From Candidatus Saccharimonadota bacterium (GTDB lineage: Bacteria; Patescibacteriota; Saccharimonadia; Saccharimonadales; Saccharimonadaceae), in contig WRFU01000004.1 of the NCBI GenBank assembly GCA_009778675.1, forward strand, positions 1-41,151: a stretch of DNA of 41,151 nucleotides. Reading direction: 5' to 3'. A program made the translations under genes and the position numbers. The notes under the pieces were generated by a model, which saw nothing but the letters and a program-made list of their open reading frames with translations, did no database searches and was not told the DNA's origin. Of this stretch, positions 36,273 through 41,151 are shown one piece after another (the first letter of the stretch is position 1; each line of letters begins with the position of its first letter).

Positions 36273-36721
36273 TGGAAATTGCTGTCGGCACAGTCATAAT
36301 TAAAGATGGCAAAATTTTAATGGTTCAGGAAGCCCAAAATAGTAAGCATGAACAATGTTATAAACAATGGTGTGTCCCAACTGGCCATTTAGAAAAAGGC
36401 GAACATATTCAGGCTGCGGCGATTCGTGAAGCCAAAGAAGAAACAGGCTATGATATTAAACTCAAGAATTTATTGGCGGTTTTTAGTGTAACTAATTATT
36501 GGCCATTGCTTATCTATTTCATTGGTGAAGTAATATCGGGTAAACCAAAATTTGATAAAAACGAAATATTAGATGTTAAATGGGTCTCGCTGGATGAATT
36601 AAATAATTATGATTTACGCTTACCGCTAAAAGTGATGAATGTACTACTCGACCGAGTAAAGAATAATGAACTGTACCCACTAGATGTAATAAAGGAATTG
36701 AAAGGTGACTGGTTAAAATGA
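36272..36721 (+). CDS. NUDIX hydrolase
   Basis: The 149-aa protein has a complete Nudix box: G-H-L-E-K-G-E at about residue 44, then REAKEETGY (GX5EX7REUXEEXGU). Such enzymes hydrolyse nucleoside diphosphates linked to another group, or oxidised nucleotides; the substrate cannot be read from sequence. It overlaps the hydrolase gene by one base and ileS by four (ATGA), so all four genes are co-transcribed under the T-box. Confidence 0.92.
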   Translation: MEIAVGTVIIKDGKILMVQEAQNSKHEQCYKQWCVPTGHLEKGEHIQAAAIREAKEETGYDIKLKNLLAVFSVTNYWPLLIYFIGEVISGKPKFDKNEILDVKWVSLDELNNYDLRLPLKVMNVLLDRVKNNELYPLDVIKELKGDWLK

Positions 36722-39700
36722 AATTTAAATATGGTACACGACGTAGAGCAATAGAATACGAAAAAGACATTGCTAATGCGTGGAAGAAAAACAAAACTTT
36801 TGAAAAATCAGTGCAACAGCGCTCAGCCGATAATTCTTTTGTATTTTACGATGGCCCACCATTTATAACGGGTGCACCACACCACGGCACATTATTGAGC
36901 AGTATTGTTAAAGACTGTGTGCCACGCTACCAAACCATGAAAGGCAAGCGGGTAGAACGCCGTTGGGGTTGGGATTGCCATGGCTTGCCAGCTGAAAACT
37001 TTGTCGAAAAACAGCTTAATATCGTGGATCGGCGCGATATTGGCACCAAAATTAGCCTGGAAGATTACATTACCAAGGCTCGCGAAAGCATGGTGGCTAA
37101 CAGCGAGCTATGGGAAAGTTATATAGATCGTATTGGTCGCTGGGTTGATTTTAAAGGCGCCTATAAAACCATGGACAAAGATTTTATGGAAAGCGTTTGG
37201 TGGGCTTTCAAAACTATGTACGACAAAGGGTTGATTTATGAAGGCGAACGGGTGTTGATGTACGATACTAAATTTGCTACCCCAGTTAGCAAAGCTGAAG
37301 TAACCATGGACAACGACGCTTACCAAACTGTCACCGACCCAAGCGTATACGTTAAGTTTAAACTAATCCCCGGCCAGAAATATCATAATGACGAGTGGGA
37401 AACGCACGAAAATACTTATTTGCTGGCCTGGACAACCACGCCATGGACTCTACCGGGCAATACAGCATTAGCCGTAAACTCTGATATGAGTTATTGGGAA
37501 GTAAAGCTGAATGATGAAATTCTCATTATTGCCAAAGATTTAATCGATAAGGTTTTAGTGGATGATAAGCACCAGCCGCTCGACTATGAAGTGGTTTTTG
37601 ATGATGTAAAGGGTAGCGATTTGGTCGGACTAGGATACGAACCATTAATGTTAGACCAAAAGGATTGGATCCTAAAACAAGTTCAGGATGACACGGCGCG
37701 GGCGAATGTGCATAAGGTTTGGCCGGCTGATTATGTTAGCGCCGAATCTGGCACTGGTATTGTGCACTTGGCGCCGATTTATGGTGAAGAAGATTTTGAA
37801 CTGGCTCAACAAAATAACATACCGCGGTTGCATATTTTAGATGACAACGGCTATTATTTTCCAGAGGTGGCAGAGCAGTTATATAAATTTATGCCGTGGC
37901 GCGACGCGAATGAACCGCTCGAAGTTTGGGATGCCAATAAAGATATTGCCAAAGGTCTAAACAAAGCTGGCATTGTGTGGAAAGTTGAATATATCCAACA
38001 TGAATATCCATTTAACCCTAGGAGTGGTCAACGCATTATGTACCGCGCTATCCCAAGCTGGTTTTTTGATATACAGGGGCAAAAGCCGCTATTATTAGAA
38101 CAAAACGAAAATATTTATTGGTTTCCAGAACATATTAAACATGGCCGGTTTGCCAAAAACGTGCAGCAAGCACCAGATTGGAATTTAAGCCGCGATCGTT
38201 TTTGGGCGACAGCTATGCCGGTGTGGAAGTCGGATAAAGGTACTATCAAAGTTGTCGGTAGCTACGCCGAACTGAAAGAACTTAGTGGTAAAGAGCTAGA
38301 GGATTATCACCGGCCGTGGGTGGATAGTGTTAAGTTCACACTTGCGGATAGTAAACCAACATGGAATGACTCTAAGATCCTGAAACAAGTTCAAGATGAC
38401 AAAATAGAGCATTTTAAGCGCATCGATAAAGTACTAGATTGTTGGTTCGAAAGTGGCAGTATGCCATTTGCGCAGCAGCACTATCCATTCGAAAACAAAG
38501 CTAAGTTCGAAGCTAACTACCCAGCCGATTTTATATCTGAATACACGCCGCAAGTGCGTGCTTGGTTCTACTACTTGCATGTCGTAAATACCGCGCTGTT
38601 CGGTAAAAACGCCTTTAAAAACTGCATCGTAACAGGCACTATTGCTGGTGAAGATGGCCGCAAAATGAGCAAATCGTTTGGTAATTACACCGATCCAAAC
38701 GAGTTAATGGACAAATTTAGTGCCGATTCGCTACGTTTTCTGTTGCTGTCTAGCCCGTTACTTTCTGGCGAAGATTTTGCGCTAAAAGATAAAGAAGTTG
38801 GCGACATAGCCCGCAAACTTGCCATGGTGTGGAATATGTATGATTTCTTTACCATGTACGCGCAGGTGGATGGCTGGGAATTTGACGATAAAAAATCATT
38901 TACGCTTAACCCAACCGATGTTCAATCGCCCCTAGATAAATGGATTATTTCCCGTGTTCACCAGCTAACAAAACACTTAACAAACTATATGGATGTTTAC
39001 AACATTCCAGATGCCATGAGCGCTATTGTGCCGCTTATCGATGACGCTAGTAATTGGTATGTCCGTCGTAGCCGCCGCCGTTTCTGGAAGAGCGAAGACG
39101 ATACCGATAAAGCGCAGGCCTACCGTACCCTACATTACGTACTGGTAAAACTGGCCGTGTTACTTGCACCGTTTACACCATTTTTGGCCGAAGAACTATA
39201 CCAACTTTTGACTGATGGGGAATCAGTTCATCTGCTCGATTGGCCAACTAACACTACTGTTGATCAGCCGGTGCTAGACAGTATGACTAGGGCGCGTGAA
39301 ATAATCGAAAAAGGCCTGGCACTTAGGATGGAACGCGAAGATAGTTTTGGTCAAATTAAAGTTCGCCAACCACTCAGCCAATTGATTTATGGTGGCGATA
39401 AACTAGATGATTTTTACGAACAGATTATTGCCGAAGAGGTGAATGTGAAAACTGTAAAGTTTAGCGCCAAATCGCCAGTTAGTGTCAATAAGACATTAAC
39501 TAAAGAATTACGCCAAGAGGGCTTCGTACGCGAACTAATCCGCTTTGTCCAAAATACCCGCAAAAACGCTGGCCTAAATGTTGATGATCGTATAAAACTC
39601 TCGTTAAGTGTAAAACTAAACCAAGAATGGCAGCAATTAGTAGCAGCCGAAACTTTAGCCACAGAAGTAGTAGCTGATGGTAACTTCGCCCATGACGAAA

Positions 39701-39750
39701 TAGCCCAGGTTGATGGCCAAAACATCACGATTTCTTTAGAAAAAGCTTAA
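36718..39750 (+). CDS. ileS: Isoleucyl-tRNA synthetase with HHGT active-site motif and two in-frame repeat insertions
   Basis: The 1010-aa class I synthetase charges tRNA-Ile. The N-terminal catalytic core has FYDGPPFITG, then the HIGH-equivalent at residues 55-58 reading HHGT, RRWGWDCHGLPAE, the CP1 editing domain, GWFESGSMPFA-type motif, KMSKS at 649-653, and the anticodon-binding domain. There is no C-terminal zinc finger, and the layout resembles the eukaryote-like IleRS2 type. The last His of HIGH is Thr here. Two copies of a 26-bp palindromic element are translated as ILKQVQDD at about 317-326 (editing domain) and 553-562. It overlaps the NUDIX gene by ATGA and is controlled by the T-box 1.3 kb upstream. 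Confidence 0.96.
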   Translation: MKFKYGTRRRAIEYEKDIANAWKKNKTFEKSVQQRSADNSFVFYDGPPFITGAPHHGTLLSSIVKDCVPRYQTMKGKRVERRWGWDCHGLPAENFVEKQLNIVDRRDIGTKISLEDYITKARESMVANSELWESYIDRIGRWVDFKGAYKTMDKDFMESVWWAFKTMYDKGLIYEGERVLMYDTKFATPVSKAEVTMDNDAYQTVTDPSVYVKFKLIPGQKYHNDEWETHENTYLLAWTTTPWTLPGNTALAVNSDMSYWEVKLNDEILIIAKDLIDKVLVDDKHQPLDYEVVFDDVKGSDLVGLGYEPLMLDQKDWILKQVQDDTARANVHKVWPADYVSAESGTGIVHLAPIYGEEDFELAQQNNIPRLHILDDNGYYFPEVAEQLYKFMPWRDANEPLEVWDANKDIAKGLNKAGIVWKVEYIQHEYPFNPRSGQRIMYRAIPSWFFDIQGQKPLLLEQNENIYWFPEHIKHGRFAKNVQQAPDWNLSRDRFWATAMPVWKSDKGTIKVVGSYAELKELSGKELEDYHRPWVDSVKFTLADSKPTWNDSKILKQVQDDKIEHFKRIDKVLDCWFESGSMPFAQQHYPFENKAKFEANYPADFISEYTPQVRAWFYYLHVVNTALFGKNAFKNCIVTGTIAGEDGRKMSKSFGNYTDPNELMDKFSADSLRFLLLSSPLLSGEDFALKDKEVGDIARKLAMVWNMYDFFTMYAQVDGWEFDDKKSFTLNPTDVQSPLDKWIISRVHQLTKHLTNYMDVYNIPDAMSAIVPLIDDASNWYVRRSRRRFWKSEDDTDKAQAYRTLHYVLVKLAVLLAPFTPFLAEELYQLLTDGESVHLLDWPTNTTVDQPVLDSMTRAREIIEKGLALRMEREDSFGQIKVRQPLSQLIYGGDKLDDFYEQIIAEEVNVKTVKFSAKSPVSVNKTLTKELRQEGFVRELIRFVQNTRKNAGLNVDDRIKLSLSVKLNQEWQQLVAAETLATEVVADGNFAHDEIAQVDGQNITISLEKA
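37668..37693 (+). repeat. 26-bp palindromic element, copy 2 (in frame in ileS)
   Basis: It differs from copy 1 by one base (TAAAAC for TGAAAC). It is read in frame as ILKQVQDD within the CP1 editing region of IleRS, between the strands before HKVWPADY. Confidence 0.9.
38376..38401 (+). repeat. 26-bp palindromic element, copy 3 (in frame in ileS)
   Basis: It differs from copy 1 by one base (TTCAAG for TTCAGG). It is read in the same frame as copy 2, giving ILKQVQDD again, just before the segment leading to DCWFESGSM. Confidence 0.9.
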
Positions 39751-39765
39751 AAACTTGCACGAAAC

Positions 39766-39797
39766 TTGCATTAGGGGGGGGGGTACTACTGTATAAT
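39766..39797 (+). promoter_or_regulatory. Probably phase-variable promoter with G10 tract in the spacer
   Basis: TTGCAT at 39766-39771 and TATAAT at 39792-39797 are 20 bp apart. Ten consecutive G (39774-39783) fill half of the spacer. Loss of two or three G would give the optimal 17-18 bp. AGGAG at 39805-39809 follows near the expected start of transcription. A second -35-like TTGCAC is at 39755-39760. Confidence 0.7.
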
Positions 39798-39847
39798 TAG
39801 TAACAGGAGTTAAAAATAAAACCTGCGAGAGAAAGTACCAGATACTC

Positions 39848-41151
39848 TTGCGTTTACCAAAAAAATTGCAGTTATTACAGATTAGTTTACCAGCTATTAT
39901 AGCTTTGGCAGTCTTTGCTGTAGTCCGCTTAGCTCCGCTAGCCCATGCAGCCCCTAGTGACTTCATTGATATCCCTAACACTCAGACTGGTACTATAACC
40001 ATTACACTAAACAATGGCAGTGATAATACCGGTGGTGATTGCTATTTTTTTGACATCTCTGGCCTAACTGGCACGGCCGCTTCTTATAACGGTGCTGGCT
40101 ATTGGTTAGGTGATGGTTACCCCGGCTGGGGCATTAATTTGCTGGCTGGTACTGGCAATTATAATATAGTGGTTGACGGAGCTGGCTGCACTTCATATTC
40201 AGATGGCGCGCTAAATATTTATATGCAGGGAGTCACGCTAACACAATTGGGCGCTTACTCTCCGTTACAATTACAAAATGGCGCTGGTGTTGATTTAACC
40301 GTTAATGGAGTCAACACGTTTAGTAGTAGTACATCGGCTGGCATTGGTGTCGACTCTGGTAACTCGATCATGATTACTAGTGGTAATGGTGGGGTACTCA
40401 ATGCTTCATCGGGTCGTGATTCTGGTATTGGTGGCAGTGGTGTTTCGCAGTTTGGCAATATTACGATTGGCGGTAATGTGCAAGTTAATGCCAGCGGTAT
40501 GTCTGGTGGTATTGGTGGTGGTGGCCAGGATAGTTATAATTTTGCAGGCACCATAACTATTACAGACAATGCACGAGTAAGTGCTATTGTTTTGCCTGGC
40601 AATCCTAGCGCTGGTTATAATAGTTTTGGCGCCGGTATCGGCACCGGTGAATGCGCATTTTGTGATTCAGCATACCCTGGGGCTGGCAACACTGGCAAGG
40701 TGGTTATTAGTGGTAATGCGTTTGTTTATGCTGATGGATCTAATTCTATCCAAGGTTATGATATTGGAGCTGGCTACGGTTTCACACTTAATGAGGTTGA
40801 TATCACTGGTGGCACAGTAATTGCCGATAGTATATCTGGTGGGTTAGTTAATATCTCTGGTGGTTTTGTCTATTCATCTAACATTTTAGCGACAAATTAT
40901 CAATCTGACGGTGCTAATGAAGGGCAAAATCCAATTTTGAATAAGGTCTCTATTACCAGTGGTTCCGTTTTTATACTCAATATGTCGAATGCGTCGGTGA
41001 TACCTAGCCCCACCGATGCCTCTGATAGCCTAGTTTACCCCCTCTACATCCCTACCACTCTAAGCCCCAATAATGCGAATACTGCCAACAGTAATGTAGA
41101 CTTTAGCACGGCCACACCAAGCGTACCGTACACTCTACACACTCTAACACC
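39848..41151 (+). CDS. Secreted beta-helix surface protein, TTG start, runs off the window
   Basis: An uninterrupted frame of 434 codons begins with TTG at 39848 and is still open at the window end. There is no ATG upstream in frame before the stop at 39794. From this TTG the product starts with a good signal peptide: a short RLPKK basic part, a hydrophobic core and AHA-AP cleavage near residue 35. The mature part has repeated Gly/Asn/Thr-rich strands (AGIGVDSG, SGIGGSG, GGIGGGG, GAGIGTGE), typical of right-handed beta-helix carbohydrate-binding surface proteins. The role in adhesion is inferred. AGGAG at 39805 is 38 nt from the TTG, so the start is uncertain by some codons. Expression is probably switched by the G10 promoter. 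Confidence 0.8.
   Translation, partial: MRLPKKLQLLQISLPAIIALAVFAVVRLAPLAHAAPSDFIDIPNTQTGTITITLNNGSDNTGGDCYFFDISGLTGTAASYNGAGYWLGDGYPGWGINLLAGTGNYNIVVDGAGCTSYSDGALNIYMQGVTLTQLGAYSPLQLQNGAGVDLTVNGVNTFSSSTSAGIGVDSGNSIMITSGNGGVLNASSGRDSGIGGSGVSQFGNITIGGNVQVNASGMSGGIGGGGQDSYNFAGTITITDNARVSAIVLPGNPSAGYNSFGAGIGTGECAFCDSAYPGAGNTGKVVISGNAFVYADGSNSIQGYDIGAGYGFTLNEVDITGGTVIADSISGGLVNISGGFVYSSNILATNYQSDGANEGQNPILNKVSITSGSVFILNMSNASVIPSPTDASDSLVYPLYIPTTLSPNNANTANSNVDFSTATPSVPYTLHTLT

Follow-up and report, generated by a model that had tools for sequence, protein, structure and literature searches.

The window analysed here, a 41,151-nucleotide stretch of a Candidatus Saccharimonadota genome, contains a promoter in which a run of ten G residues lies between the -35 and -10 boxes. 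Very likely it switches transcription by slipped-strand phase variation, as the porA promoter of Neisseria does, and its own tract is predicted to slip. The initial annotation had read the G10 spacer in this way, and the reading is supported by tract-length variation in relatives, by an architecture that occurs far above chance, and by the lack of MutS in the order. The switch reading was retained, with the refinement that the genome carries many such switches rather than a single odd promoter.

The G10 promoter and its surface-protein gene

Direct reading of the coordinates confirmed the arrangement of TTGCAT, a 20-bp spacer with G10, and TATAAT that had been described for this site. On the forward strand, the -35-like hexamer TTGCAT (39766-39771), which has two mismatches to the consensus, is followed by the spacer (39772-39791) and by a -10 box of consensus sequence, TATAAT (39792-39797). 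The G10 homopolymer, the putative slippage switch, occupies 39774-39783, 2 bp past the -35 and 8 bp short of the -10. When -35/-10 pairs were scored, TTGCAT was the top-scoring partner of the -10 box; an alternative -35, TTGCAC (39755-39760), was discarded, as it lies 31 bp away from the -10. At 20 bp, the spacer falls inside or near the range of about 16-20 bp in which one or two bases alter promoter strength. The upstream gene, encoding a class I tRNA synthetase (ileS-like; 36718-39750, forward strand), ends 23 nt 5' of the G tract.

The tract is the sole G/C run of at least 8 in the window, where the longest other runs are A 8, T 7, and C 5. Simulations with a first-order Markov model fitted to the window produced a G10 or C10 somewhere in 10 of 400 cases, which makes the run on its own just mildly unusual. 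The real signal is its placement within a promoter rather than the run itself.

The promoter arrangement lies 64 nt upstream of a secreted surface-protein gene (39848-41151, forward strand), which has a TTG start, an N-terminal hydrophobic segment, and a beta-rich sequence, and which is open at the contig end. The TTG start at 39848, the leader (TGCGAGAGAAAGT and near variants), and the hydrophobic segment are common to paralogues on contigs C15 and C1. Within the leader, sequence comparison revealed a ribosome-binding-like element, GAGAGAAAG (39827-39836, forward strand), that is kept in both paralogues. From the signal- or anchor-like N-terminal segment and the membership in a family sharing a C-terminal domain, we infer that the protein is located at the surface. 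It had no match in Pfam or NCBIfam. Its AlphaFold model was beta-rich but of low confidence (pLDDT 51), and Foldseek gave no significant match, the sub-threshold matches being mostly beta-helix or beta-solenoid proteins; the beta-helix fold named in the initial annotation is plausible. No relatives of the protein were found in the genome-contig search or, outside its own genome, in 60 relatives, and therefore promoters of other genes, not direct orthologues, were compared.

As contig C4, the window belongs to a genome (G000) of 825 kb in 39 contigs. Both C8 and C30 begin with the 66 bp that end the window (41086-41151). These two contigs share their first 123 bp (C8:1-123 and C30:1-123) and then diverge in the C-terminal half and in the genes that follow, so that a single branch upstream splits into two downstream. 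Extended through the overlap, the frame of the window gene reaches 804 aa or 798 aa (via C8 or C30). This fork may reflect strain variation, an unassembled second gene copy, or paralogue recombination, which look alike here, and it was hence given no evidential use.

Poly-G promoters in the genome and in relatives

The whole genome contains 28 G8-G11 tracts, all of them 8-11 long, with 67 tract start positions observed against about 10 predicted from shuffles of the window. Using a simple score for a -35/-10 pair flanking the tract, we found that 12 of the 23 scorable G9+ tracts lie between -35-like and -10-like boxes, compared with 6.1% of random positions (binomial p ~2e-9). When six genomes were pooled and a stricter cut of at least 10.5 was applied, 33 of 104 tracts were promoter-like; read on the C strand, 2 of these 104 passed, as did 1.3% of random positions. 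The eight clearest G-tract promoters of the window genome have spacers of 16-20 bp. The arrangement recurs as TTGTAT-19-TATAAT of the C1 paralogue, in which G10 abuts the -10; TTGCGT-19-TATGAT and TTGATT-19-TATACT on C5; TTGCCT-18-TAAAAT on C10; TTGCTT-18-TATACT on C29; TTGACT-18-TTTAAT on C30; and TTGTAT-16-TATACT on C22. Other tracts are intragenic or have no recognisable promoter nearby. G8-G10 tracts within reading frames occur on C13, C23, and C18, at C5:21245 and C1:95024, and elsewhere (L050, L056, L053, L044, L042); those of L053, L056, and L042 seem to interrupt the frame and are possible translational switches.

These promoters serve surface genes. The C-terminal domain of the window protein, an unnamed domain of 150-180 aa, occurs at eight places in the genome, and among the seven such genes with a known 5' end, four (on C4, C1, C10, and C29) carry a G10 promoter (p ~1e-6 if the background is taken to be 12 in 900 genes); those on C15, C6, and C10:10184 have no G10 promoter. 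Targets in the same genome include beta-rich, IPT/TIG, and RCC1-repeat surface proteins. In relatives they include type IV prepilins, collagen-like proteins, and further membrane or secreted proteins, while a few targets in two genomes (G020 and G010) are without a clear signal.

Collagen-like proteins starting with M(T/P)RLP(T/H)PG(S/K)DxGQWGxILNDYL (e.g. 'MTRLPTPGSDxGQWGQILNDYL') number eight in G033 and two in G111 (L113, L117, L118, L124, L128, L114, and L129 in G033; L095 and L106 in G111), and every member found sits behind a promoter of the TTGAC-Gn-TATA type with G9-G12. Prepilin-like genes with the GFT(I/V)(I/V)E(L/V) motif directly follow G-run promoters in two relatives (L093, 7107-; L098, 3753-; L109, L112, L123, L125, L126). 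Type IV pilins may thus be phase-variable.

Without mismatch repair, G runs of such length should slip often. Of 151 genomes of the order, 149 lacked MutS, and Saccharibacteria have been reported to lack both MutS and MutL (PMC8406219); frequent slippage of such runs is therefore expected in this order.

The same deficiency suggests a neutral origin of the G run, in which homopolymers grow wherever they are tolerated in the absence of mismatch repair and the promoter spacer is merely tolerant. The missing MutS throughout the order fits this explanation, as do the tracts inside genes or in intergenic DNA with no clear promoter. We nevertheless regard it as improbable. The lack of MutS is common to the order, yet G9 tracts are plentiful (dozens) in some genomes and absent from most. 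Moreover, the promoter-like tracts favour G on the nontemplate strand 33 to 2 and sit on surface genes, and A, T, and C runs in the window have stayed short.

We searched for the pattern TTGACNN{2,9}G9N{0,7}TANNNT and obtained 188 matches in 68 of 394 family genomes, whereas the reversed-pattern control gave 2 matches. A sample of 380 genomes from the whole phylum contained the same pattern in 8. In a scan of named genomes, a similar pattern also turned up in gut Clostridia, Streptobacillus, Helicobacter, and others; five of the records listed were labelled Saccharibacteria or Patescibacteria. The promoter type is thus not unique to Saccharibacteria. The assignment of the window to Saccharibacteria in the initial annotation has indirect support, as G111, a relative from the same GTDB family, is identical to record CALLZM010000002.1 ('uncultured Candidatus Saccharibacteria bacterium'). 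The loci recorded as L154-L232 show a similar G-run architecture in many gut Clostridia MAGs, in Candidatus Ancillula, in Streptobacillus notomytis, and in a Helicobacter species.

Among 136 listed promoters of the TTGAC-G9 type, the spacer averaged 17.8 bp and was most often 15-16 or 18-19 bp long. Spacers that vary from genome to genome mix ON and OFF states. Longer G runs tended to go with fewer fixed spacer bases (r = -0.34, a value as low being reached in 1 of 20,000 permutations), the pattern expected if total spacing is under selection.

The initial annotation had proposed counting the tract in related genomes, and its length proved not to be a uniform G10: the same flanks carry G9-G12 across species and G10/G11, G10/G14, and G16/G17 within genomes. 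Homologous secreted-protein promoters from five species of one related genus have G12 (G794), G9 (G739), G11 (G681), G11 (G784), and G10 plus G11 in two copies (G704), with the -35, the -10, and the leader kept; of the roughly 60 bases of leader, 44 to 59 agree. The closest pair shares 59 of 60 downstream bases and still differs as G12 versus G11. Within single genomes, pairs with the same boxes have G10 and G14 (G756) or G16 and G17 (G688), the two G688 copies lying at contig ends, where they might be one locus. These lengths come from assemblies, and short-read assembly lengths carry some error. The variation concerns the promoter class in relatives; the window locus is represented by one assembly and one allele.

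Such variation bears on whether the run could be a fixed structural element of constant length, giving an optimal spacer shape or a site for a regulator. Lengths do cluster at 9-10 (45 and 51 of the 136 sites), and some paralogous promoters have equal tract lengths. A constant element is hard to reconcile with identical flanks that carry G9-G12 between species and G10/G14 inside one genome, and the position of the tract also varies: in the window it is set 2 bp from the -35 and 8 bp from the -10, whereas in the C1 paralogue it touches the -10. We therefore consider a fixed element very unlikely. Least likely of all is a sequencing or assembly artefact with platform-inflated runs: 2 of the 28 tracts do lie within 50 bp of a contig end (expected 0.13, p 0.008), but the tracts have unique sequence on both sides, are specific to promoters and to one orientation, and are present too in few-contig relatives such as G010. 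Contig ends near tracts were given no weight as evidence, as they equally suggest length heterogeneity or assembler trouble.

Proposed switching and known systems

In the phase-variation reading, slipped-strand mispairing during replication, uncorrected in the absence of MutS, would gain or lose single Gs. Each slip would shift the -35/-10 spacing by one base and rotate the boxes relative to each other, so that RNA polymerase would initiate the surface-protein gene well at some tract lengths and poorly at others. The assembled G10 state, with a 20-bp spacer near the upper edge of the class, is probably weak, and about G8-G9 (18-19 bp) would be stronger. The idea of an ON state set by spacing, as put forward in the initial annotation, was kept; its assignment of ON to G7-G8 was refined, because G8-G9 is likelier given the mean of 17.8 bp and the modes of the 136 promoters. 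With the same architecture at about seven or more further promoters in the genome, and at many in the family, the mix of surface proteins in a population would shift. The benefit may lie in host range or in evading a host or phage.

The best-known parallel is porA of Neisseria meningitidis, whose promoter has a poly-G tract between -10 and -35 (van der Ende 1995, cited in PMC5084427). The two have in common a G homopolymer in the -35/-10 spacer, spacing set by tract length, and a surface-protein gene downstream. The present case differs in belonging to an unrelated phylum, in having about eight such promoters in a 0.83-Mb genome of an order without MutS, and in being known from sequence alone. 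Poly-G/C contingency loci of Campylobacter and Helicobacter offer a second comparison. C. jejuni NCTC11168 has 29 loci with seven or more G/C (PMC4965091), and the window genome similarly combines about 28 G tracts with a small genome, many of them tied to surface genes; here, however, many tracts occupy promoter spacers instead of being confined to reading frames. The Helicobacter pylori sabA promoter (PMC4081817) is alike in that the length of a homopolymer tunes how strongly an adhesin gene is transcribed, but its tract consists of T and was shown to be more than a mere spacer, making it a rheostat as opposed to a spacing switch. The nearest case found in the candidate phyla radiation is a hypervariable gene of Gracilibacteria (PMC6851277), in which repeat length varies and slipped-strand mispairing has been proposed; there it is a coding 9-mer repeat of one gene, in contrast to the promoter spacer here. 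Our search of open-licence papers turned up no description of phase-variable promoters in Saccharibacteria, in agreement with the initial annotation, which knew of none.

Reverse-transcriptase repeats and the host-binding surface

A separate observation concerns a reverse-transcriptase gene of the window genome. On contig C17 (1049-2100; L052, L282), a G9 coding tract breaks its frame just 5' of the motif GIPIGNLTSQ. Homologues in other genera (L283, L286, L288, L290, L291, L293, L294, L309) have G13, G13, G7, or the tetranucleotides GACA, AGCA, GCCA, or CAGT at the same site, and these repeats leave the gene in frame in some genomes (G096, G047) and out of frame in others. Repeat pairs of about 115 nt adjoin several of these genes and differ almost solely where one copy has A (all 16 differences in both G096 and G047), the signature of the template and variable repeats (TR/VR) of a diversity-generating retroelement (DGR). 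Such repeats were not seen in the window genome, where C17 stops about 1 kb past the gene. On this evidence, the DGR reverse transcriptase looks phase-variable in the order, which would make the hypermutation system switchable. A narrow literature search surfaced no earlier description of slippage-prone DGR reverse transcriptases, and this side finding may be more novel than the promoter finding.

The window promoter could be one switch of a genome-wide 'phasome' in episymbionts lacking mismatch repair, in which poly-G spacers shuffle surface proteins, prepilins, and fibres while reverse-transcriptase repeats toggle hypermutation; we give even chances to this scheme, in which the host-binding surface would be diversified stochastically at two tiers. 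Saccharibacteria spend their lives attached to other bacteria, and the cultivated TM7x binds its host partly by means of a type IV pilus (PMC12206443). Should G-run length switch surface proteins and prepilins at random, clonal populations would be mixtures of binding types. Such mixtures could explain host shifts and escape with no new mutations elsewhere, and tract length in ordinary reads would provide a simple readout of surface state for uncultured bacteria.
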